From positions 124,001-188,000 of the forward strand of contig NZ_CP070352.1 of NCBI RefSeq assembly GCF_016919405.1: a stretch of DNA of 64,000 bases, read 5' to 3'. The notes under the pieces were generated by a model. It did no database searches. It saw only the letters and a program-made list of their open reading frames with translations, and was not told the origin of the DNA. A program made the position numbers and the translations under genes. Source of the DNA: Ensifer sp. PDNC004 (GTDB taxonomy: Bacteria; Pseudomonadota; Alphaproteobacteria; Rhizobiales; Rhizobiaceae). Shown piece after piece: positions 5,958-34,680 of the stretch; position 1 is the first letter of the stretch; every line of letters starts with the position of its first letter.

Positions 5958-6098
5958 ACCCGCATATACGGAGCCGATGCGATTTCTCATCCATGGTCGA
6001 CGAAAAAAATATCATCCACCCGGATGCGGCACATTCGGATGGCATATTCGCCATCATAAGCGGAGCGCGCTTGCGCTTTGGTTGCCCGGGCGCTGCCC

Positions 6099-7361
6099 CT
6101 ATGTGCTCGCGGCTAGCGCTTCGAGGGTTGCGGCAAACAGCATACGGGCACCGTCGATGGAATGCGCGGGCTCGACATATTCCGCTTCATTGTGGCTGAG
6201 CCCGTCGCGGCAAGGCACGAAGATCATGGCGGCCGGCGCAACGCGATTGAGGAACAGGGCATCGTGGAAGGCGCCGGAAAGCATGCGCTTGGTCTTTAAT
6301 CCGAGCGAGGCGGCGGCGCGATCGAGACAGGCGAGCAGGCCGTCCGAGAACAGGGCGGGCGGCATGTCGAAGATTTGCCGCGCTGTGCTCTGGCAACCGT
6401 TCGCTTTGGAGGCGCTGTCTAATGCCTGCCGGACCCGCGCCTCCAAGTCGTCGATGGCTTTGGTCTCCGGGTGGCGCAGATCGACGCTAAACGTGACCGA
6501 ACCAGGTATCGCGTTCACCGAACCTGGTTCGACTGCGAAGCGGCCGACGGTGAAGCGTGCGCGCGGGTCGCTCGGCATGACATTCTTGTAAAGTGGTTCA
6601 AGCGCGGCAACGGCGGCGGCCATCGGGTCGCGACGGAATTCGAGCGCCGTCGTGCCGGCATGCGCTGCCTGTCCATCGATCGTGACCTCCAACCACCGCG
6701 TGCCTTGGATGCCGTAGACGATACCAACCGGTATGTTTTCCCGCTCGAGCGACGGCCCCTGTTCGATATGAAGCTCCAGGTATCCGGAGATCGGGAAGCC
6801 AAGTGGGCGCAATTCGGCGTCCGGCAAGGCTTTCAGTGTTGCCTCCAACTCGTCGACGAACGACGCTCCGTCGCGCCCGCGAAGATCGGACCAGGCCTCG
6901 GGGATCGCGCCGGCGGCAAATGCCATAGACCCCATCGTGCCCGGGGCAAAACGGCTTCCTTCCTCGTTGGTCCAGGCGACGACCTCAAGCGGAAGATCGG
7001 TCTCGATAGCGGCATCTTCGAGGCTCTCCATAACCTCGAAGGCCGTCAGGGTGCCGAGTGCCCCGTCAAAGCGCCCGCCGGTCGGCTGGCTGTCGAGGTG
7101 GCTGCCGATGACGAACGGCGGGCGATGAGGAAAACGGCTCTCCCGCCTGATGAACAGGTTGGCCATCGGATCCTGAAAGACACGAAAACCGCGCGCAAGC
7201 GCGAGTTCCGCCAGCATGAGGCGGGAGGCGCGATCCTCCGGCGACAAAGCCTGCCGGTTGACACCGCCGGCCGGCGTCCCGCCGATTCTTGCGAAATCGT
7301 CGAGACGCTTGAGCAGGCGCTTGCCGTTGATCGTTGTTCGAGAGGTCATCGTCGTTCTCAC
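6099..7361 (-). CDS. M20-family Zn-dependent amidohydrolase (allantoate / N-carbamoyl-L-amino acid hydrolase type)
   Basis: A 420-aa metal-dependent amidohydrolase. The two-metal ligands are all present: IGSHLDSQPTGGRFDGALG (H, D, D), NEEGSRF (EE), LELHIEQGP (H) and the C-terminal SGAFHDALF (H). The dimerisation domain has GQAAHAGTT. Family members cleave N-carbamoyl or ureido amides such as allantoate, N-carbamoyl-amino acids and beta-ureidopropionate. Relatives also deformylate aminopyrimidines, which is notable because the gene directly follows a TenA-like gene (12 bp apart). The start is the GTG at 7361 with AAGGCG upstream; ATG 7349 is an alternative. It is last in the btpA-tenA-amidohydrolase set. 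The true substrate is unknown. Confidence 0.85.
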   Translation of the reverse strand: MRTTMTSRTTINGKRLLKRLDDFARIGGTPAGGVNRQALSPEDRASRLMLAELALARGFRVFQDPMANLFIRRESRFPHRPPFVIGSHLDSQPTGGRFDGALGTLTAFEVMESLEDAAIETDLPLEVVAWTNEEGSRFAPGTMGSMAFAAGAIPEAWSDLRGRDGASFVDELEATLKALPDAELRPLGFPISGYLELHIEQGPSLERENIPVGIVYGIQGTRWLEVTIDGQAAHAGTTALEFRRDPMAAAVAALEPLYKNVMPSDPRARFTVGRFAVEPGSVNAIPGSVTFSVDLRHPETKAIDDLEARVRQALDSASKANGCQSTARQIFDMPPALFSDGLLACLDRAAASLGLKTKRMLSGAFHDALFLNRVAPAAMIFVPCRDGLSHNEAEYVEPAHSIDGARMLFAATLEALAAST

Positions 7362-7373
7362 ATGTCGCCTTGA

Positions 7374-8021
7374 TCAGCCGTAGGCTGCATCATGAAAGGC
7401 GATTTCCAGCTGCTGCGCTCGCCCGAAGATCGCGCTCAGGCGCTTGCGCTCGGAAGCGTCGAGCGTGTTGCCGGCCGCATCGAGTTCTTGCTTCAGCCAC
7501 ATCGCCTGGGCCGCGAACTCATCATCGGCGTGCATTTCCACCCATTCCTTCAAATGCGGATCGGCAAACGATGACCGGACGGCCCTTTTCGACCAGGTCC
7601 AGTACATCCACTCGGCCGCGAACATGGCAGCGACGGTATCGAGGAAACCGCCGTTTCGGGCGATCTCGAGCATGCCCGCCCGGAAAGCCTCGACCTCAGC
7701 AACATCGAGATCATAGGCGCCGGGATCGATGTTGCGCTCGGCAAAAATCCGCTCGAAATAGGCGATCTGCTGGTTGGCGAGCGCGTCCAGAACGGCAACC
7801 AGCCAGCGCTTCTGTTCAATTGTCTCGGCTTTCGCCGTCGCGAAGGCGAAGATCGAGATCGCGGTTTCCACGAACGCGCCCTCATAGACGAGATAGCGTT
7901 CGAAAACCGGCGTGGGCAGGCGCTCCGTGACAATGTCATAGACAAAGCGATGGTTCACCATGGCTTCGAAGACGGCGGCGTTCTCCCGCAGGATCTGTTC
8001 CGAAAGCGTTTCAGCCGCCAT
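7374..8021 (-). CDS. TenA/PQQC-fold protein (TenA_E-like, lacks the classical Cys)
   Basis: A 215-aa all-helical TenA family protein. In classical TenA (thiaminase II, aminopyrimidine aminohydrolase) the catalytic cysteine sits in a PCYWLYY-type motif. Here the aligned segment reads AAEWMYWTW, with no cysteine. The catalytic C-terminal glutamate appears conserved (QLEIAFHD). The N-terminal substrate aspartate of QDSYYL aligns with Glu in VYEGAFVE. It therefore resembles the cysteine-less TenA_E class. The ATG at 8021 is 2 bp after the BtpA-family stop, and a GTG at 8027 overlaps that stop, so the two are translationally coupled. The family call is strong; the reaction is inferred only. Confidence 0.85.
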   Translation of the reverse strand: MAAETLSEQILRENAAVFEAMVNHRFVYDIVTERLPTPVFERYLVYEGAFVETAISIFAFATAKAETIEQKRWLVAVLDALANQQIAYFERIFAERNIDPGAYDLDVAEVEAFRAGMLEIARNGGFLDTVAAMFAAEWMYWTWSKRAVRSSFADPHLKEWVEMHADDEFAAQAMWLKQELDAAGNTLDASERKRLSAIFGRAQQLEIAFHDAAYG

Positions 8022-8023
8022 CG

Positions 8024-8866
8024 TCACGCCTCGAGCGCGGGTTCGGCAGCGGCGCGGAAAGCCTTCACCCGCTCGATATCGACCGGGTTCCACCAGACCC
8101 CGCCGTGCTTCAGCGACGAGGCAACGATCACGCCGTTGGTGCGTTTGAGGATTTCGAGGATGTTGTCCTTGGTCACGCCCGAGCCGACCAGAAGCGGCAG
8201 GTTTGTCGCCGAGCCGATCTCCTCGATTTCCGCGATGGTGGCCGTATTGCCGGTGCGCTGACCGGTGGCGATCACGCCATCGGCGTCGAAGAAGGCGAGG
8301 TCGCGCGTCAGTTCCTGGATCGAGCGATCGGCAACGATGGCGTGGGCACCGTGCTTCACATGGCTGTCGGCAAAGACCTTGATGTGCTCGGCGCGCAGCA
8401 ACGATCGGTAGCGCATCGCTTCTGCGGCCCGCCCTTCCATGAAGCCTTCGTTGGCGACATAGGCATTGGCCCACTGGTTGACGCGAATGAATTTGGCACC
8501 GCCAGCCATGGCGATGGCAAAGGCCGGGATCGGCGCATTGGCGAGAACGTTGATGCCGAGCGGCACACCCGTCGCCCGGGCGATCCGGTCGGTGACGACG
8601 GACATGAAGGCGGCCGTTTCGTGACCGATATCTTCCGGTTTGGAGAACGGCACGTCGCCGTGATTTTCGATCATCAGGCCATGCAGCCCCCCCTCGACCA
8701 AGGCCTCGGCATCGCGCATGCAGGCGTCGTAGATCGCGGACATATCGGCGCCCCGATAACGCGGCGCACCGGGGAAGGCCGGGCAATGGATCATGCCGAT
8801 CAGAACCTTGTCAGTCCCGAATATTTCCCTTATGGCGCTTGAGGACTTGTCAGATATTTCCTGCAT
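8024..8866 (-). CDS. BtpA/SgcQ family TIM-barrel protein
   Basis: A 280-aa protein of the BtpA/SgcQ family, recognised from VLIGMIHCPAFPGAPRY, GLMIENHGDVPF, GVPLGINVLAN, AKFIRVNQWANAYV, DGVIATGQRTGN and LLVGSGVTKDNI. SgcQ belongs to a sugar-utilisation operon of E. coli and BtpA was linked to photosystem I stability in cyanobacteria. The biochemical activity is not established to my knowledge, though the fold suggests a nucleosidase- or aldolase-like enzyme. ATG 8866 is preferred over 8893 because AAAGGGAGAG stands directly before it. It is first in a three-gene minus-strand unit and its start lies only 25 bp from the divergent PfkB start. Confidence 0.88.
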   Translation of the reverse strand: MQEISDKSSSAIREIFGTDKVLIGMIHCPAFPGAPRYRGADMSAIYDACMRDAEALVEGGLHGLMIENHGDVPFSKPEDIGHETAAFMSVVTDRIARATGVPLGINVLANAPIPAFAIAMAGGAKFIRVNQWANAYVANEGFMEGRAAEAMRYRSLLRAEHIKVFADSHVKHGAHAIVADRSIQELTRDLAFFDADGVIATGQRTGNTATIAEIEEIGSATNLPLLVGSGVTKDNILEILKRTNGVIVASSLKHGGVWWNPVDIERVKAFRAAAEPALEA

Positions 8867-8891
8867 TTCTCTCCCTTTCGAAGGTATGTTC

Positions 8892-9791
8892 ATGCACGCT
8901 TACGTAATCGGTAATGTGACGGTGGACGAGACCATCGCCGTGTCGGAAATGCCGGCTGCGGGCGCATCGATCCACGGTAGCCAGCGGTCCCGGGACCTTG
9001 GTGGCAAGGGCGCGAACCAGGCTGTCGTCATGGCCCGCACGGGCCTGCCGACGAGCCTTGTCGCAGCCTTCGGCGACGGTTTTCGCGCCGACATGATCCG
9101 CCAGCATCTGGCGAGCGAGCCGGTGGTCAGCAGGCTTGTGCCGGTCCTCGGGAAGTCCACCGACTTCTCGATCGTGCTGACCACGCCGGATGGCGAAAAC
9201 GTCAACATCACGACCACCGACTCTGCACAGAACCTCACGCTTGCCGACGCCATCGCTCCGCTGACCGACGCGGTCCCCGGCGACCTTGCGGTGCTCCAGG
9301 GAAACCTGTCGGACGAAACGACACGCGGCATCCTTGAAGCTGCACGCGCTCGCCACATGATCACCGCCTTCAATCCGTCTCCCTTGCGTCCCTATTTCGG
9401 CACCCTGTGGCCTTTGATCGACATCGCCTTCCTCAACCAGGGCGAGGCGCAGGCAATGACCGGCACCAGCGGCGAAGAGGCTGCCCGCAAGCTGCTTGCG
9501 GCCGGCGTTCGCGAAGTCGTTCTGACCTTCGGCGGCGACGGAGCCATGCTCGTCACCGCCGAAAGCAGTGTCCGGATCGGCGCCGTCGAATGTGACGTCG
9601 TCGACACCACGGGCGCCGGCGACACGTTCATGGCGGTGGCGCTCGCATCCGCTGCACTTCGTGGCAGTCGTCTCGATCGCACCGCGATCGAACATGCAAC
9701 ACGGGCCGCCGCCATCACTGTCAGCCGTCCCGGAACCCGTTCGGCGTTTCCGTCGATTGAGCAGTTGCAAGCGATCCTCGCCGCGCGCTGA
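8892..9791 (+). CDS. PfkB family carbohydrate/nucleoside kinase
   Basis: A 299-aa ribokinase-like kinase. The PfkB N-terminal motif is RDLGGKGANQAVVMARTG and the C-terminal motif with the catalytic base Asp is DTTGAGDTFMA. The GAAGG ribosome site 8 bp before the ATG at 8892 decides the start against in-frame 8793 and 8886. It would phosphorylate a sugar, nucleoside or related alcohol delivered by the neighbouring ribose-type ABC transporter. It is the only plus-strand gene in the cluster, divergent from btpA and convergent (31 bp) with the GATase-like gene. Confidence 0.9.
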   Translation: MHAYVIGNVTVDETIAVSEMPAAGASIHGSQRSRDLGGKGANQAVVMARTGLPTSLVAAFGDGFRADMIRQHLASEPVVSRLVPVLGKSTDFSIVLTTPDGENVNITTTDSAQNLTLADAIAPLTDAVPGDLAVLQGNLSDETTRGILEAARARHMITAFNPSPLRPYFGTLWPLIDIAFLNQGEAQAMTGTSGEEAARKLLAAGVREVVLTFGGDGAMLVTAESSVRIGAVECDVVDTTGAGDTFMAVALASAALRGSRLDRTAIEHATRAAAITVSRPGTRSAFPSIEQLQAILAAR

Positions 9792-9822
9792 GGCTCTTCC
9801 CAGCGCGCGGTCCTCGCCGTGC

Positions 9823-10590
9823 TTAGCGCGCCGTCTCCGTCATCCATCCAAGGATGTTCTTCCAGAGGCGGCCGTAGCCTTCCCACTCGCAGAATGCCGG
9901 CGACAGCCAGTGCGGGCCGATATCGGACGTCCAGGCGGCGGTGCGCCCCTTGCCAAAGCCACCAAGCACGAGCAGCGGGTGCCCGCCCTGGTCTTCCGGG
10001 AGCCGGGCGATGACCTCGGCTCCATCGCGTACCTCCACTTCGTTGACGCCAAGAAGCAACGGCCAGCTGCCCGAAAGCCCCGCCATGGTCGGATGATCCG
10101 GCTTGACGACGTCGGCGACGGCACCCTCGGGAATCTCGACGCGGTCGTCATAAGGAAGGCAGGTGACCGGAAGCGTGTCTTCTACGGCCGTGCGGCGCCA
10201 GCGGGCCTTGCCGTCGATGCCCTGGAAGGAGAAGTAGCCGCCGACCATCAGCAGCGCTCCACCCTTTTCGACCCAGGCCTTGATGAGCTTCAAGCGGTTC
10301 GGAACGGTGCGCGAATGCAGCCATACTGCCGGCGGCAGCAACAGCGAGTTGGCGCCGATGTCGGAAAGGATGATCGCATCATACTGGTCGAGGCCGGCCA
10401 TCTCATAGGGGAACTGGTCGACGGCGTCGTGCGCGGTCATGTAGGTCAGCTCGAATTCGCTGTCCTTGAGCACCTTGACGAGCGGTTCCGCGCCCAGGTG
10501 GAAGGTGACGCTGCCGAACTGGTCGAAACCCTTGTAGTGGGTGGCGGAGCTTACCCAGCTCTCACCGACGAGAAGCACTTTCTTTGTCAT
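9823..10590 (-). CDS. Class I glutamine amidotransferase-like protein without catalytic Cys (COG5426/ThuA-like)
   Basis: A 255-aa alpha/beta protein with a flavodoxin-like GATase fold: MTKKVLLVGESWVSS, YDAIILSDIGANS, WVEKGGALLMVGGYFSFQG and GGFGKGRTAAWTSDIGPHW. At the nucleophile elbow, where amidotransferases have GxCxG, the sequence is GGYFSFQG, so it is unlikely to hydrolyse glutamine. Related ThuA-like proteins sit in sugar-catabolic operons with ABC transporters and dehydrogenases, but their function is mostly unproven. It lies 39 bp downstream of the phosphotriesterase-family gene, at the 3' end of the LacI-controlled operon. Confidence 0.75.
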   Translation of the reverse strand: MTKKVLLVGESWVSSATHYKGFDQFGSVTFHLGAEPLVKVLKDSEFELTYMTAHDAVDQFPYEMAGLDQYDAIILSDIGANSLLLPPAVWLHSRTVPNRLKLIKAWVEKGGALLMVGGYFSFQGIDGKARWRRTAVEDTLPVTCLPYDDRVEIPEGAVADVVKPDHPTMAGLSGSWPLLLGVNEVEVRDGAEVIARLPEDQGGHPLLVLGGFGKGRTAAWTSDIGPHWLSPAFCEWEGYGRLWKNILGWMTETAR

Positions 10591-10629
10591 GGTCTATCCG
10601 TATGTCTTGAATTGCGTTGGGAGCCGATG

Positions 10630-11697
10630 TCAGGCCCCGGTTTGGAATACCGAGCGGGGATTGTCCCGCATCATTCTGTCGAGCGTGCCGTCGTCCAGTC
10701 CGTGCCGTTTGAGGCGCGGCAAGAAGTGGCGCAGGACGTAGGCGTAGCCGTTGCCTCCGTAGTGGCTGAGCATCATTTTCAGGAACACGTCGTGCGAAAG
10801 CAGGATGCGGTCCATGTGGCCGGTGTCCACCAGCCTGGCGATCGCCCGTGCCGCCTCTTCGTCACTCGGGCATTGCACCTGCTGATCGGCATAGAAGAAG
10901 TCCATGCCGATCATGTCGTATTCGATGAACGCCCCGCGCTCGGCGAGTTCGCTTTGATAGGCGAAGTCGCCGTGGGACGGGTTCATGTGGCAAAGTACGG
11001 TGTGGCGCAGATCCCCACCTTCCTCGGCGACGACATCGAGCACCCGGTGGCCGAGCCGGAACCAGCCGGGCAGGTGCACCATCAGCGGCAAGCCGGTCCG
11101 GACCTGCGCCCGGGCGGCCCCACGCAGGGACTTCTCCTCCGCTGGAGTGAAATCGGAGGAGACACCGATCTCGCCGATCAGCCCGATTTTGACGCCCGTG
11201 CCGTCGACACCGTCGATGGCCTCGCGAACGATGCCGTCGGCGATCTGGTCGACGCTCATGTCGGCGACCTCGGCCGGATGCGAGGAGGCAAGATAGTACC
11301 CGGCTCCCATCACGATGTTGAGGCCCGTCGCCTTGGAGATCCGCTGCAAGGCGAGCGGGTTTCTACCGATGCCCTTGCAGGTGGGTTCAACCACCGTGCG
11401 GCCGCCTTCAGTCGCGAAAGCCTGCAATTCGGCGATCGCCAGGGGTTCGTCGTCAAGCGTGATGTTATGCTTGTTGACGAAGGGGTCCTGGCGCAGTTCG
11501 CCAAGGATCTCCATGCAGACGAAGCCTTCAGCGAGATACTGACGCTCCTTCGTTTGCGGCGCGTTCCACCAGCAGCGGCAATCGTTGAGGATATGCTCGT
11601 GCATCAGCGTGATGCCGAGTTGATCCGCACCGATCGCGCCGTGCACCGTCATCACCTTGCCGGACCGCACATGTCCTTCGGACAGTTCCTTGCTCAT
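10630..11697 (-). CDS. Phosphotriesterase-family metal-dependent hydrolase (COG1735)
   Basis: A 355-aa TIM-barrel amidohydrolase-superfamily enzyme. The metal ligands are visible: LMHEHIL (HxH), LIGEIGVSS (the glutamate expected to bridge the metals, as in E. coli phosphotriesterase-homology protein), MVHLPGW (H), LCHMNPS (H) and LLSHDVF (D). EPTCKGIGRNP is another family hallmark. Natural members include lactonases acting on sugar or phosphosugar lactones; true organophosphate hydrolysis is rare. ATG 11697 is used; an alternative ATG at 11706 overlaps the permease stop as ATGA. Either way it is coupled to the ABC transporter genes, which suggests it acts on the imported compound. Confidence 0.87.
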   Translation of the reverse strand: MSKELSEGHVRSGKVMTVHGAIGADQLGITLMHEHILNDCRCWWNAPQTKERQYLAEGFVCMEILGELRQDPFVNKHNITLDDEPLAIAELQAFATEGGRTVVEPTCKGIGRNPLALQRISKATGLNIVMGAGYYLASSHPAEVADMSVDQIADGIVREAIDGVDGTGVKIGLIGEIGVSSDFTPAEEKSLRGAARAQVRTGLPLMVHLPGWFRLGHRVLDVVAEEGGDLRHTVLCHMNPSHGDFAYQSELAERGAFIEYDMIGMDFFYADQQVQCPSDEEAARAIARLVDTGHMDRILLSHDVFLKMMLSHYGGNGYAYVLRHFLPRLKRHGLDDGTLDRMMRDNPRSVFQTGA

Positions 11698-11702
11698 GGC
11701 GG

Positions 11703-12701
11703 TCATCTCTTGCCGCCGAAGCGGAAGTTGGCGGTGAAGATCCGCGTATTGAGCCAGATCGCAACGAGAATGATCGCGCCGGTAACAATCTGCGTGAAGA
11801 ACGGCGAGATATGCATGAGGATGAGGCCGTTGCCGATGACGGCGATCGTCATGGTGCCGAGCACGGTGCCCAGGATCGTTCCGCGGCCCCCCATCAGCGA
11901 CGTCCCGCCAAGCACCACCGCGGCGATGACCTGAAGCTCGAAGCCGACAGCAGCATTCGAGGAACCGGAGCCGAGGCGCGCAGCGATCAAGAGGCCGGCA
12001 AGGGCGCAGGCGACGCCAGCGATCATATAGACCGAAGCGATCACCCATTTCGCCGGCATGCCGACGCGGCGGGCGGCTTCCATGTTGGACCCGACGGCGA
12101 CGACCTGGCGGCCGTACTTGGTCGAGGATATGACGACATAACCAGCGACCGCGACCGCAACCGCGATCAGGGCAGGCATCGGAATACCCAGCAATTCGCC
12201 GCGGCCGAGCATGAAGAAGCCCGGGGCATCCTTGATCGGGATCGAATAGCCCTGCGTCAGATAGAGCGCCAAGCCGCGCAGGATCGACAGGCCGGCAAGC
12301 GTGACGATGAAGGCCGGAATCCCCTGATAGGCAGTGAACCATCCCTGCACGAAGCCAAGGAAGGCACCAAAGAAGAGCATCGCGATGACGACGAGAGGCC
12401 AGGGATACCCCATCGCCAAGACGATGGCCGCGACCGCATTGACCAGGGCGACCTGCGAACCGACCGAGAGGTCGATGCCGCCGGTGATAATCACCAGTGT
12501 CATGGCGACCGCGACGATGAGGATCGGCGCTGCTTGGCGGATGACGTTCAGAATGTTGCCGAGCGTCATGAAGGTATCGGTCGTGGCCGCGAAAAAGACG
12601 ACGCAGGCCAGGAAGAAGAAGGCGATCGACAGGACCTGGGCGTTTTCCGAGAGGAAGTCTGCCGCGGGTGAGCCTTTCGCGCGTTCGGTGTAGGCCGTCA
12701 T
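11703..12701 (-). CDS. Ribose-type sugar ABC transporter permease
   Basis: A 332-aa BPD_transp_2 family permease with 8-10 hydrophobic segments and the hallmark GGIDLSVGSQVALVNAV and AVVLGGTSLMGGRGTI motifs of RbsC/FrcC proteins. It imports the ligand of the adjacent binding protein across the inner membrane. Its start overlaps the ATPase stop by 4 bp and its stop overlaps the next start, so the transporter genes are tightly coupled. Confidence 0.93.
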   Translation of the reverse strand: MTAYTERAKGSPAADFLSENAQVLSIAFFFLACVVFFAATTDTFMTLGNILNVIRQAAPILIVAVAMTLVIITGGIDLSVGSQVALVNAVAAIVLAMGYPWPLVVIAMLFFGAFLGFVQGWFTAYQGIPAFIVTLAGLSILRGLALYLTQGYSIPIKDAPGFFMLGRGELLGIPMPALIAVAVAVAGYVVISSTKYGRQVVAVGSNMEAARRVGMPAKWVIASVYMIAGVACALAGLLIAARLGSGSSNAAVGFELQVIAAVVLGGTSLMGGRGTILGTVLGTMTIAVIGNGLILMHISPFFTQIVTGAIILVAIWLNTRIFTANFRFGGKR

Positions 12702-13504
12702 TGCTTGGCTCCTTCCCCGACGATCAGCTTGACGAGGTCTTCCAGGTTGGTCTTGCCGATTTCGCGCTCTGCCACCTTGGTGCCTTCGTACATGACGGCA
12801 ATGCGGTCGCAGACGCGGAACAGGTCCTGGAGGCGATGGGTGATCAGGATGACCGAGACACCCTTTGCCTTGACGCGGTTGATCAGCGCGAGCACGGCTT
12901 CGACCTCCGCCACGGCGAGTGCCGAGGTGGGCTCGTCCATGATCAGGACCTTCGGATTGAACGATGCGGCACGCGCAATCGCGATCGCCTGCCGTTGTCC
13001 GCCCGAGAGCTGGGCGACCTTGCCGGTCAGCCGCGGAATGCGGATTTCCAGCGCGTCGAGCATCTTGCGTGCTTCGGCGAGCATGGTCTTCGTGTCAAGG
13101 AATGGTCCCTTGCTGATTTCTCGACCGAGGAAGAGATTGCCGACCACGTCGATGTGGTCGCAAAGGCTCAAGTCCTGGAAGACCATTTCGATATTGCGGT
13201 TGCGCGCATCTGCAGGTCCTGAAAAGCGGACCTCTTCGCCTTCCAGGGTAATGGTCCCGCCATCGGGAATGTAGGTTCCAGAGATGACCTTCGTCAGCGT
13301 CGACTTGCCGGCGGCATTGTCACCGACGAGGCCAAGGCATTCGCCAGGATAAATATCGAGGTCGACGCCGCGCAGCGCCTGGTGCGATCCGAACGTCTTG
13401 ACGATCCCCTTCAGGGACACGCGGGGGCTGACACCGGCGCGGGAGGGCAAAGCCCCCCCGACACCAGCGACAGCGGGAGGATGCTGTCTTTCAGTCGTCA
13501 TCAT
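12698..13504 (-). CDS. Sugar ABC transporter ATP-binding protein (single NBD)
   Basis: A 268-aa ATPase with one nucleotide-binding domain: Walker A GDNAAGKST, signature LSGGQRQ and Walker B VLIMDEP. The usual RbsA partner of ribose-type permeases has two NBDs and about 500 residues. This single-domain form matches the FrcA-type arrangement of rhizobia and presumably works as a homodimer. ATG 13504 overlaps the binding-protein stop (ATGA); the in-frame sequence upstream lies inside that gene. A proline- and glycine-rich N-terminal extension of about 25 residues precedes the NBD. Confidence 0.93.
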   Translation of the reverse strand: MMTTERQHPPAVAGVGGALPSRAGVSPRVSLKGIVKTFGSHQALRGVDLDIYPGECLGLVGDNAAGKSTLTKVISGTYIPDGGTITLEGEEVRFSGPADARNRNIEMVFQDLSLCDHIDVVGNLFLGREISKGPFLDTKTMLAEARKMLDALEIRIPRLTGKVAQLSGGQRQAIAIARAASFNPKVLIMDEPTSALAVAEVEAVLALINRVKAKGVSVILITHRLQDLFRVCDRIAVMYEGTKVAEREIGKTNLEDLVKLIVGEGAKQ

Positions 13505-14457
13505 TTGAAGATCGCCCGATATGGCTCGACGTTGTCCTTGGTGACGATCGTTACCGGCACGGCGATGGTCTTCTCGACGCTGCCGCCGTCGGAGACCTTC
13601 TTCAAGGCGTCGACGGCAGCGGCGCCCATTGCAGAAGGATCCTGCTGGATCACGGCGGTGACGTAGCCTGCGTCGATGCCGGCGATCGCCTGGGCGGTAA
13701 GATCCCAACCGAAGACCTTGACGCTATCCTGCTTGCTCTGGCTTTCAACCGCGGCGATGGCACCCATCAGGGCCGGCTCGCCGGTCGCATAGATCGCGGT
13801 CAGGTCGGGGTTGCCGGTAATCAGGTTCTCGGCGGCCGCAAGCGCGTTGTCCTGCACGTTCTGTCCATCGACGACGCCGGCCGAACTGATGCCGTCGACA
13901 TCCTTGATGGTCTTTTCAAATCCTTCCTGGCGAACGTTCTGAATGAACGAGTTGAGCGCGCCGACGACACCGATCTTGGCTTTGCCATCGGCGTTGGCCT
14001 TGATGTAATCGAGGAAGAACTTGCCCATGTCGGCGCCCGCCGTGGCGTTGTCGACTCCGATCTGCGCCTTCTGCGGGCCTTCCGGAAGGATCGCATCGAT
14101 GGCAACGACGGGGATCCCGGCTTCGGCCGCCTGATTGACGGCCGGCATGATGCCGTTGACGTCGATTGCGACGACGGCGATGCCATCGACCTTCTGCTGA
14201 ATGTAGGTTTCGATCGCACTATTCTGCGCGGCCGGGTCGTTGTTGGCATTGAAGATGACGAGCTTCGCGCCGGCAGCGTCAGCTGCCTTCTGCGCGCCTT
14301 CGTTCATCTGGTTGAAGAAAAGCGCCTGCTGGTTGATCTGCACGAGTGCAAAGGTCTTTTCGGCGGCAAGGGCCGGCGAGAGAGCCGCGCCGAGGGTCGT
14401 CAACGCCGTGAATCCAAGCGTGGCGATTAAGGTCCTGCGTTTCAAATTCCAGTTCAT
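13501..14457 (-). CDS. Sugar-type ABC transporter periplasmic binding protein
   Basis: A 318-aa RbsB-type (Peripla_BP_4) binding protein. A signal peptide covers about residues 1-31 (positive start NLKRR, then a hydrophobic core ending SPALA). The mature part has FFNQMNEGAQKAADAAGAKL, GIAVVAIDVNGIMP and TAIYATGEPALMGAI, typical of ligand cleft strands. ATG 14457 is preferred because the upstream extension lacks a signal-peptide start. It lies 34 bp after lacI and is likely the first transporter gene of that operon. The ligand cannot be read from sequence. Confidence 0.92.
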   Translation of the reverse strand: MNWNLKRRTLIATLGFTALTTLGAALSPALAAEKTFALVQINQQALFFNQMNEGAQKAADAAGAKLVIFNANNDPAAQNSAIETYIQQKVDGIAVVAIDVNGIMPAVNQAAEAGIPVVAIDAILPEGPQKAQIGVDNATAGADMGKFFLDYIKANADGKAKIGVVGALNSFIQNVRQEGFEKTIKDVDGISSAGVVDGQNVQDNALAAAENLITGNPDLTAIYATGEPALMGAIAAVESQSKQDSVKVFGWDLTAQAIAGIDAGYVTAVIQQDPSAMGAAAVDALKKVSDGGSVEKTIAVPVTIVTKDNVEPYRAIFK

Positions 14458-14491
14458 GTTCTCATCCTCTGTTGGTTCTCCATTGCGTGAT

Positions 14492-15514
14492 TTATCGTTT
14501 CGCCGGCGGAGCAACGGATTTCCGCACGACGATTTCGACTGGCAGGAGCTCTTCGACGAGAGCCTGCTTGCCCTGCCAGTTTGTTTCGAGAAGAAGGGAG
14601 AGGGCACGCTCGCCGATCGCGCGGACCGGCTGGCGGATGGCGGTCATGGGCGGACCGAAAAGATGCAGCGGGCCGACATCGTCGAAGCCGATGACAGAGA
14701 CATCGTCGGGAACGGACACCCCCTGGTCCCGGAAGACCTCGATCATGCCGATGGCGATTTCGTCCGAGCTGGCGAAGATCGCCGTTGCTGGGCGGCCTTC
14801 CTCGATGAAGCGTTTCGCCGCCCACCGACCAAAGGTCACGGTGTAGTCGCCCGCGTATTTTGACAGCCGGAAATCTTCGCCGAACGCATCGCGCAGCGCC
14901 CGCTCAAGACCGTTGAAGCGTCGATGCGAACTGATCATCGCTTCGGGGCCGCCGACGAAGAGCACATCCCTATGCCCGAATTCGGCCAGATGCCGGCCGG
15001 CGAGCGATCCACCCATCTCGTTGTCGCAGAACAGCTTCGGTGCCTGGGCGCCGGGGACGTCTTCGTCGGCGATCACGACTTTGCCGGTGCGGTTTATCAA
15101 GGTGGCGAGTTGACCGTCATCCGGGTGGTTGGTGACGAAGATCAGGCCGTCGACGTGATTGCGTTCAATCAGTTGGAGATAGGCGACCTCACGACCGGCC
15201 CGGTTCAGGGTGGCGTAAAGAGAGACGGCAAGACCGCGGGTATCCGCCTCTTCTTCGACGGCTGCCACGAGGGTTGCGAAAAAGGGGTTGGCAATATCCG
15301 GAACGACAAGACCGATCGTGTCGGAGCGACCGCGGCTAAGCCGGCGGGCATGCGGGTTGGGCTGGTAATTGAGGTCGCGGATCGCATCCGAGATCCGCTT
15401 CTTCGTCTCGAAGGGCAGGTCGAGCGATCCGTTCAGCAGGCGCGACACCGTCGTCACTGAAACGCCGGCAGCTCGGGCTACATCCTTCAGACCTGTGACG
15501 CGTCGTGTGGTCAC
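14492..15514 (-). CDS. LacI family transcriptional regulator
   Basis: A 340-aa LacI/GalR regulator. The N-terminal helix-turn-helix reads GLKDVARAAGVSVTTVSRLL with the hinge NYQPNPHARRL. The effector domain is periplasmic-binding-protein-like (TIGLVVPDIANPFFATLV, SDEIAIGMIEVFRD, VSVIGFDDV). It heads the operon containing the binding protein, ATPase, permease, phosphotriesterase and GATase-like genes. Two palindromes with a central CG lie 23-49 bp upstream of its start, so autoregulation and repression of the whole operon are likely. The inducer is presumably the imported compound or its phosphorylated form. Confidence 0.93.
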   Translation of the reverse strand: MTTRRVTGLKDVARAAGVSVTTVSRLLNGSLDLPFETKKRISDAIRDLNYQPNPHARRLSRGRSDTIGLVVPDIANPFFATLVAAVEEEADTRGLAVSLYATLNRAGREVAYLQLIERNHVDGLIFVTNHPDDGQLATLINRTGKVVIADEDVPGAQAPKLFCDNEMGGSLAGRHLAEFGHRDVLFVGGPEAMISSHRRFNGLERALRDAFGEDFRLSKYAGDYTVTFGRWAAKRFIEEGRPATAIFASSDEIAIGMIEVFRDQGVSVPDDVSVIGFDDVGPLHLFGPPMTAIRQPVRAIGERALSLLLETNWQGKQALVEELLPVEIVVRKSVAPPAKR

Positions 15515-15536
15515 CTTGGCTCCATCCCTTGCCGTT

Positions 15537-15563
15537 GTAAACCGATTTACTAAAACGCTTTAC
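15537..15563. promoter_or_regulatory. Tandem LacI-type operators
   Basis: Two adjacent 14-bp palindromes share one base: GTAAACCGATTTAC (15537-15550) and CTAAAACGCTTTAC (15550-15563). Each has the central CG and AAA/TTT arms common to LacI-family operators, and their centres are 13 bp apart. They lie just upstream of lacI (start 15514) and are presumed to be its binding sites. Confidence 0.75.
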
Positions 15564-33636: not shown

Positions 33637-34122
33637 ATGGTTGAACTTTCCGCAACGTCGCCTCTCTCTTCGCCTTTTCGAAAAGCCGGTGCCGGTGCGC
33701 TTCTGCTGCTCGCTCTGACGAGCCTGCACCACGCCTATGGCGCCTATATCTATGAAACACCGTGGCGCCTCCACATCGTCCATTTGGCCGTGCCGGCGGC
33801 GATCATCATAACAACCGCTCTGTATGTCGGTCGGTCAAAGGGCGGGACCATGGCCGGACGTGTCGCGATATGGCTGGCGGCCCTTGTCGTGCTCGCCTTC
33901 CCGGTCGCGATGATCGGTATCTACGAGGGAGGCTGGAACCATGTGATCAAGAATATCGCCTATTTCGGCTTCGGAACGGATGCGGCACGGTTCCTGTTTC
34001 CCGAGCCGGTGTACCGGTTGCCGGACGATTTTCTCTTTGAATTGACGGGGATTGCCCAATTCCCGCTCGCCATCGTCACCGCGCTCAACACGATCAACCT
34101 GTTGCGGCGACCCATCCGGTGA
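33637..34122 (+). CDS. Conserved hypothetical membrane protein
   Basis: A 161-aa protein with about four hydrophobic segments (ALLLLALTSLHHAYGAYI, HLAVPAAIIITTALYVG, VAIWLAALVVLAFPVAMIG, and a C-terminal AIVTALNTINL). GAGGAACAGCC precedes the ATG at 33637. I do not recognise a named family. Divergence from a TetR gene with a shared palindrome suggests an inducible inner-membrane function, perhaps stress- or efflux-related. Confidence 0.8.
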   Translation: MVELSATSPLSSPFRKAGAGALLLLALTSLHHAYGAYIYETPWRLHIVHLAVPAAIIITTALYVGRSKGGTMAGRVAIWLAALVVLAFPVAMIGIYEGGWNHVIKNIAYFGFGTDAARFLFPEPVYRLPDDFLFELTGIAQFPLAIVTALNTINLLRRPIR

Positions 34123-34192
34123 TCGGATCTAGCTGCCGGCGGCCGCGCCCTCGTGCCGGCCGCCCGCAGGGTTGCGGTCGAAGGCCGCTACC

Positions 34193-34680
34193 TCAGCCTG
34201 CACTGCGTGGAGATTTGCCATCCCCTTTAATGAAATCGGCAAAGGCTGCGACCAGGTAATCGAACACCGCTGCGATCCTGGCCACCGATCTGAGATTCTC
34301 GTGGGCGACGATCCAGGTATCCAGTGACGTCACCACTACCTCCGGCAGGAGACGCTGAAGTCCTGGGTCCCTCTCTCCGATCGGAACCTGCATGATCGTG
34401 ATGCCGAGGCCGGCCCGTGTCGCGGCAATGCGCGCGGGATGGCAATCCGTCCGCATCGCATAGCGCATCGGGGGTAGTTCTGGTGCGGCGCTCTTGCCGA
34501 TCTTCATGTCGACGGGGGAGCGATACGGCCCGAGGACGTCGTGACTGGCGAGATCGGCCAAGGAGCCCGGCCGTCCCCGGCGCGCGATGTAGTCGGCGCT
34601 GGCGAACAAGCCGAGCGGGATGGAACCGACTTTGCGGGCGATCAAGGCATCCTGCGTCGGCGCAACTGTTGTCCGCAGTG
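34193..34680 (-). pseudogene. LysR-family regulator, C-terminal fragment
   Basis: About 160 residues match only the C-terminal half of the LysR effector domain: APTQDALIARKVGSIPLGLF, GRPGSLADLASHDVLGPY and VARIAAVFDYLVAAF. Upstream of about 34680 the frame stays open but stops resembling LysR, and the HTH domain is absent. The break faces a similarly truncated MFS gene, so one deletion or rearrangement probably removed both 5' halves. It cannot act as a DNA-binding regulator. Confidence 0.8.

Follow-up and report, generated by a model that had tools for sequence, protein, structure and literature searches.

A LacI-controlled gene cluster in Ensifer sp. PDNC004 with a ribose-type importer and BtpA, GATase-like, PTE, PfkB and TenA proteins: a possible pathway for ribosyl conjugates

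Introduction

This paper concerns a cluster of ten genes in Ensifer sp. PDNC004 that joins a LacI-family repressor and a ribose-type ATP-binding cassette (ABC) importer to proteins of the phosphotriesterase (PTE), glutamine-amidotransferase-like (GATase-like), PfkB, BtpA/SgcQ, TenA and M20 families. It lies at positions 6099-15563 of a stretch of 64,000 nucleotides, the window, which comprises bases 124001-188000 of contig 1 in a 6.78 Mb genome of three contigs. The nearest described relative is the rikA locus of Salmonella, STM3547-STM3550. According to the passages of the rikA paper considered here, the PfkB protein RikA (STM3547) phosphorylates D-ribose, its gene adjoins those of the glutamine-amidotransferase-like protein STM3548, a DMT transporter and the PTE protein STM3550, and the carbon source or substrate of the pathway is called unknown (McCormick and colleagues, 2026, PMC13432705). 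The two loci share the side-by-side arrangement of PfkB, GATase-like and PTE genes and a transporter. They differ in that the window has a ribose-type ABC importer where the rikA locus has a DMT transporter, and in that BtpA, TenA and M20 are not among the genes named in those passages, whereas the window has all three. The window cluster is a larger relative of the rikA arrangement, distinguished by an importer and a repressor of its own and by BtpA, TenA and M20 proteins. A Proteus locus has PfkB, GATase-like and PTE genes in rikA order, the products being 25%, 43% and 37% identical to the respective window proteins.

Other comparisons are more partial. In the sgc cluster of Escherichia coli, SgcQ belongs to the same family as the window BtpA protein and stands with SgcX, which has a Zn-dependent exopeptidase domain, and the epimerase SgcE, all annotated as putative. 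Transport components are of the phosphotransferase system there and of the ABC type in the window, and no PTE, GATase-like, PfkB or TenA protein is annotated in 15 kb around sgc. The rbs operon resembles the window in its CUT2 importer, LacI regulator and PfkB-fold kinase. However, the window binding protein, kinase and ATPase score below the curated cut-offs, the ATPase is half-size, and there are extra enzymes. Pseudouridine catabolism (PsuK/PsuG) was considered and rejected, as the kinase reaches 27.3 of the 540 bits for pseudouridine kinase (NF007355) and no PsuG family occurs among the ten proteins. Clusters in Klebsiella and Pantoea have all nine core families of the window, but with a different M20 family beside the GATase-like gene and a different gene order; in one of them the PfkB match is split in two, and an IS1-type transposase gene lies between the parts. 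All member families are known, and no described counterpart of their combination was found: searches of the open-licence literature turned up neither a substrate nor a characterised pathway for the window cluster, and no pathway for those of Klebsiella and Pantoea, although R. leguminosarum locus tags had to be guessed and may have been missed. This agrees with an earlier note on this DNA, made from its sequence alone, which knew of no pathway that joins these families.

We suggest, giving it an even chance, that the unit is a LacI-repressed catabolic pathway for a nucleoside-like compound, a ribosyl (pentofuranosyl) group joined to a partner with amide or ureide nitrogen.

Organization of the locus

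The ten reading frames occupy 6099-15514, and Pfam searches of their translations confirmed every family that the earlier note had named for 6099-15563, the latter position being the end of a tandem operator. In the order in which the unit would be read, the features are the following.

15550-15563, minus strand: LacI operator 1, GTAAAGCGTTTTAG, palindrome upstream of lacI
15537-15550, minus strand: LacI operator 2, GTAAATCGGTTTAC, palindrome upstream of lacI
14492-15514, minus strand: LacI-family repressor, 340 residues, first gene of the unit (PF00356, PF13377)
13501-14457, minus strand: ribose-type (CUT2) substrate-binding protein (Pfam; 401 bits to 5hsg; conserved pocket residues)
12698-13504, minus strand: ABC ATPase, a single 268-residue domain (Pfam; RbsA model matched in its first half only)
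11703-12701, minus strand: ABC permease, ribose type (Pfam, NCBIfam)
10630-11697, minus strand: PTE-family metallohydrolase (Pfam; conserved H33, H35, E176, H208, H237 and D303)
9823-10590, minus strand: GATase1_like protein (PF07090) with a presumed nucleophile elbow that lacks cysteine (Pfam)
8886-9791, plus strand: PfkB ribokinase-like sugar kinase, antisense to the other genes (Pfam, NCBIfam)
8024-8866 (or 8893), minus strand: BtpA/SgcQ protein, predicted phosphate-binding TIM barrel (Pfam; predicted fold)
7374-8027, minus strand: cysteine-free TenA-family protein, with E139 and E208 unchanged across 21 aligned proteins (Pfam)
6099-7343, minus strand: M20 hydantoinase/carbamoylase-family amidohydrolase, accessory gene (Pfam, NCBIfam)
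6005-6026, minus strand: weak terminator-like stem and T-run after M20 (consensus match only)

The genes are closely packed. Overlaps of 4 bases join binding protein to ATPase, ATPase to permease and BtpA to TenA, and the gaps are 5 bases between permease and PTE, 30 between TenA and M20, 34 between lacI and binding protein and 39 between PTE and GATase-like. The BtpA start is probably 8866, because most of the 120 BtpA relatives listed have 280 residues. The PfkB gene lies on the opposite strand between the GATase-like and BtpA genes (8866-9823), with median gaps of about 25 bp on each side in the 62 loci of this type that were measured. A consensus scan listed no minus-strand terminator-like site between the GATase-like and BtpA genes, and the genes around the antisense PfkB could, judging from this layout, share one transcript running through it. 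Such scans gave one promoter match against 1.8 in shuffled sequences, and eight terminator matches in the region against 8.0 expected.

Conservation of the gene set

A scan of species genomes with TenA as bait found 130 stretches with a TenA relative, of which the best 80 form the set used here; those nearest to the window are from Ensifer. By tblastn, the nine-gene core (lacI, binding protein, ATPase, permease, PTE, GATase-like, PfkB, BtpA and TenA) is present in 79 of the 80 loci. The remaining locus is a 7.5 kb contig that holds the right-hand part only, and in one further locus (L055) PTE matches in two pieces. Dropped before counting were the short own-genome loci L001 and L002, the loci L083 and L084, loci below 7 kb, and sequences that lack a start codon or are interrupted by a stop; for this reason the gene-order table misses, in a few loci, a gene that tblastn finds. 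Three distant TenA loci (Haladaptatus, Geminicoccaceae and Haloferax), in which no other core family is annotated, were kept in the TenA alignment and excluded from the cluster counts. Other reading-frame groups shared by the 80 loci (8, 9, 11-17 and 19-22) are taken, from position only, to be frames overlapping the core genes.

Because TenA was the bait, this sample is biased. An unbiased test covered 121 genomes of the family from 109 genera, the own genome included, with orthologues called at E-value limits. It gave PTE in 12 genomes, BtpA in 14, the GATase-like protein in 23 and TenA in 3. All 12 PTE genomes carry BtpA and the GATase-like protein, close together in 11, and the three TenA genomes are among them. 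The chance values for overlap with PTE, uncorrected for shared ancestry, are 8e-15 (BtpA), 1e-10 (GATase-like) and 8e-4 (TenA). BtpA was found without PTE in two genomes and the GATase-like protein in 11, which indicates that both families have uses outside this unit as well. In a set of 398 genomes from the phylum, a GATase-like match (E<=0.001) was present in 20; in four of these it was weak and partial, and the frame matched was much longer. Orders in which the core recurs are Rhizobiales, Rhodobacterales and Enterobacterales. Judged by this recurrence the gene set is an evolutionary unit, so that the co-occurrence check proposed in the earlier note came out in favour of a conserved set. 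The ten genes treated there as one unit reduce to the nine-gene core, with M20, whole in 41 of the 80 loci, as an accessory.

Operators and control

A scan for the tandem LacI-type operator at 15537-15563 gave four matches (at most two mismatches) where 0.61 were expected, and one of 100 shuffles had as many. Of the 91 loci with a LacI relative, 81 have the motif GTAAANCGNTTTAC, with at most one mismatch, in the 200 bp before lacI: one site in 5, two in 75 and three in 1. The ten loci without such a site are those whose LacI is 31-43% identical to that of the window, and in five of them (Pantoea type and L125) the sites precede the ATPase or binding-protein gene; in the Pantoea clusters the operator GTAAACCGGTTTAC stands before the ATPase gene. 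The motif was derived from the same loci in which it was counted, and the off-site count therefore serves as control: there were ten matches away from the lacI promoter in 1.81 Mb of loci, nine of them before transport genes (ATPase or binding protein) and the tenth 68 bp ahead of M20 in Ponticoccus. This pattern supports a local, self-regulating repressor, with operator binding as a prediction. Operators and gene set recur in other genomes and so go beyond chance, and the earlier note's reading of a LacI-controlled cluster of unrecognised composition is supported.

A search of the own genome gave no sign of a wider LacI regulon. The sole other exact site, on contig 2, lies beside a fasciclin-like reading frame, at its end, with housekeeping genes around it, and was taken as chance.

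Variants of the cluster

Several arrangements of the cluster can be distinguished. In type (a), that of the window, PfkB is antisense inside the unit. In type (b), the R. leguminosarum type, PfkB follows TenA on the same strand, in 11 loci with an inositol-monophosphatase-family gene behind it. Type (c), from Shinella and other Rhizobiaceae, has no TenA; in six of the seven loci examined, a carbamoylase-type M20 gene directly follows BtpA. Their flanks are unshared except for a regulator gene before the binding protein in six of seven; a protein annotated as cupin takes this place in L149 and in the seventh locus, L092. Type (d), of Pantoea and Klebsiella, has the same core with the other M20 family beside the GATase-like gene, one locus (L127) being without a TenA match. 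In type (e), Paracoccus aminophilus, TenA is neither annotated nor matched and another M20 follows BtpA. The smallest version, type (f), holds importer, PTE and GATase-like genes (L123), together with lacI and the type (d) M20 in L125. Type (g), L136-L138, has a second module of a GATase-like gene, another CUT2 importer and an ArgE/DapE deacylase. Similar importers and deacylases (the latter 73-75% identical) are found next to the main cluster of Pantoea dispersa and, in Acidisoma, next to a BtpA gene.

On the Acidisoma plasmid (L147, 8686-18641), BtpA follows short PfkB-like matches and stands with two CUT2 importers and an ArgE/DapE deacylase; no PTE or GATase-like match occurs in this locus, where the same parts are arranged otherwise.

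The M20 gene is a dispensable member of the system, outside the invariant core. The window M20 is 58-67% identical to the type (c) enzymes and at most 39% identical to own-genome paralogues, and it belongs to the system because its closest relatives directly follow BtpA in six of seven TenA-less sister clusters. Fragments at its usual place behind TenA in L008, L033, L055 and L071 suggest, from their position, repeated loss from the unit. In M20-less loci the gene after the cluster varies, being an inositol-monophosphatase-family gene in 11 of 39.

Properties of the encoded proteins

The best NCBIfam matches of binding protein, kinase, permease and repressor are ribose families. This could indicate a second ribose utilization system that imports free D-ribose, with PfkB as ribokinase and the other enzymes as passengers or as enzymes for side products. 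Such a system seems improbable, as several enzyme families with conserved residues are kept across orders and are hardly passengers, and as the scores fall short: the binding protein reaches 112.5 bits where the RbsB cut-off is 337, and PfkB 173.7 bits where that of ribokinase (TIGR02152) is 299.65. The ATPase matches the RbsA model over positions 5-240 of 501, giving a half-size importer of one permease and one 268-residue ATPase domain, whereas the tandem-domain RbsA type has about 500 residues. Relative to ribose-binding protein, several pocket positions are kept and five consistently differ, with small residues replacing others. In this alignment the altered pocket suggests a sugar with something attached. 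The closest solved binding protein is 5hsg, which, like the kinase structure 3i3y, we take to come from Klebsiella.

The PfkB protein scores 250 bits to 3i3y and 108 to ribokinase 1gqt, and it keeps D14, GGKG, N44 and D246 in alignment with ribokinase. Its identity bears on a second alternative, catabolism of an Amadori or opine type, in which the substrate would be a conjugate of the ketose-amine or sugar-amide kind, such as the lactam of a deoxyfructosyl or deoxyribulosyl amino acid. PTE or the GATase-like protein would open its lactam or lactone, PfkB would phosphorylate the sugar, and BtpA would take the place of the usual SIS-type deglycase. M20 or ArgE/DapE deacylases and CUT2 importers do recur beside GATase-like or BtpA genes, and on the Agrobacterium Ti plasmid pTiA47a a GATase-like gene (product 38% identical) lies near hydantoinase A/B, an SIS-domain protein and a fructoselysine 6-kinase-like gene, a neighbourhood that is perhaps one of opine catabolism. 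Yet the window kinase scores 48.5 bits as fructoselysine 6-kinase against 173.7 as ribokinase, and none of the ten proteins matches the SIS family expected of a deglycase. We regard this alternative as unlikely, if less so than a ribose system.

Membership of the BtpA protein in the BtpA/SgcQ family is clear (PF03437, 238.5 against 30; TIGR00259, 224.8 against 153.4), and it scores below the cut-off for the photosystem I biogenesis protein (NF045918, 186.4 of 400). The fold is predicted to be a phosphate-binding TIM barrel; Foldseek and VIA-align rows were used for fold only.

In the PTE protein H33, H35, E176, H208, H237 and D303, presumed catalytic residues, occur in at least 98% of 96 proteins. 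A glutamate stands where phosphotriesterase has a carboxylated lysine. Members of this family are often lactonases or phosphotriesterases, and such names also appear among the solved relatives. The cluster could then serve PTE-centred scavenging, for which sugar lactones or compounds resembling organophosphates would be the source and in which the kinase would act on the sugar once it is free; the smallest version, importer with PTE and GATase-like genes, would suit it. The scores are low (76.1 of 500 for organophosphate hydrolase, 65.3 of 630 for phospho-furanose lactonase) and TenA and M20 point to nitrogen, which leaves scavenging of this kind about as improbable as a ribose system. The best solved relatives are 3k2g and then 9efa, a phosphotriesterase-related protein, with Pmi1525 at nearly equal score. 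Mammalian PTER hydrolyses N-acetyltaurine and controls N-acetyl-beta-alanine, according to two reports (PMC11374699, PMC13311154), so an amide is a fair guess for the PTE substrate.

The earlier note had described both the GATase-like and the TenA protein as cysteine-less. This holds for TenA, which has no cysteine in 217 residues and hence lacks the classical active-site cysteine; the GATase-like protein has two (144 and 234) and none at the stretch GGYFSF, presumably the usual nucleophile elbow. An elbow without cysteine is also found in STM1381 (3soz) and in 2gk3, which we take to be STM3548 and which scores 204 bits against the window protein. Conserved in at least 98% of 106 proteins are E10, D77, N98, R99, Y119, D149, E152, H166, N183, D223, H227 and W228.

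TenA is known to be paired with an M20 deformylase, YlmB, and the earlier note took the adjacency of TenA and M20 as a pointer to aminopyrimidine salvage. A formylaminopyrimidine, possibly glycosylated, would be imported and then deformylated and deaminated by M20 and TenA to hydroxymethylpyrimidine for thiamin. TenA adjoins a whole M20 in 41 of the 80 loci and is the sole TenA found in the own genome. The other results speak against this pointer. The M20 protein belongs to another subfamily, passing the hydantoinase/carbamoylase cut-off (TIGR01879, 359.4 against 204), with H82, D93, E128, H192 and H384, presumably metal ligands, conserved in 48 proteins. TenA keeps E139 and E208 in all 21 aligned proteins, but its 51.4 of 130 bits for thiaminase II (TIGR04306) lie below cut-off. 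No Rfam match at gathering scores, and so no match to a thiamin pyrophosphate riboswitch, was found in the 64 kb, and a Pfam scan of the ten proteins gave no thiamin-pathway family besides the TenA fold. Moreover, sister clusters do without TenA, and a ribose-type importer and ribokinase-like kinase have no place in such salvage, which we consider very improbable and the least probable of the alternatives.

Proposed pathway

From the above we infer the substrate class, the binding of the repressor, every reaction and the reaction order of the following scheme. LacI would stay on the tandem operator as long as neither substrate nor intermediate is available. The intact conjugate would enter through the ribose-type importer with its single permease and single ATPase. 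In the cytoplasm PTE may hydrolyse a bond of the amide, lactam or lactone type. The GATase-like protein would act on the same conjugate, before or after PTE. The ribokinase-like PfkB would phosphorylate the 5-hydroxyl of the sugar, after which BtpA could split or isomerise the phosphoriboside to give a pentose 5-phosphate for central metabolism. TenA, and M20 where present, may free ammonia or carbamate from the partner. Import, phosphorylation and dismantling of an N-glycoside or nucleoside-like compound had been proposed in the earlier note; the kinase family, the BtpA fold and the altered binding pocket fit it, and it is the best of the readings compared, with roughly equal chances of being right or wrong. 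A more specific form is tentative: the substrates would be ureides or amides that bear a ribosyl group, for instance nucleosides, oxidised or with the ring opened, that are released in soil and rhizosphere. BtpA would be a barrel that splits phosphoribosides or isomerises them in the Amadori manner, and the GATase-like protein with its cysteine-less elbow a new hydrolase or isomerase.

Several points weigh against this pathway. We know of no substrate, product or phenotype for any member, the roles of the binding-pocket residues are assumed rather than taken from a bound structure, and a barrel fold shows no reaction. A conserved neighbourhood does not prove a single linear pathway. Neither PfkB, BtpA nor TenA was found within 20 kb in L123 and L125, so the phosphorylation branch is not universal, and the type (c) locus L134 has neither TenA nor M20 in 20 kb. 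M20 is whole in only 41 of the 80 TenA-type loci, and in a search of 15 genomes the 11 without a whole M20 at the locus had elsewhere only relatives of 35-40% identity (E<=1e-60), with 63-83% in the four control genomes. Finally, the passages on RikA describe action on free ribose and also allow for off-target activity (PMC13432705); if the kinase acts on ribose that has already been released, BtpA need not use a phosphoriboside.

We know of no established reaction for the BtpA/SgcQ or GATase1_like families. Since the cluster is small and regulated and brings its importer and binding protein with it, both families are open to direct tests in laboratory strains of Ensifer or Rhizobium. Should the substrate prove to be a riboside, a new root-zone nutrient would thereby be named; if the more specific form of the pathway holds, these two widespread families would receive their first biochemical role.

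Other occurrences of BtpA and GATase-like genes

A second, distant BtpA protein (about 25% identical) is encoded on contig 3 of the own genome at 33641-34270, with close relatives in Shinella, Rhizobium and Mesorhizobium. On two actinobacterial plasmids (L093 and L100), GATase-like, LacI and PfkB genes lie near genes for phosphoribosyl pyrophosphate synthetase, nicotinate phosphoribosyltransferase, a HAD phosphatase and an LLM-class flavin oxidoreductase, a setting that would suit the handling of a ring compound in ribotide form.

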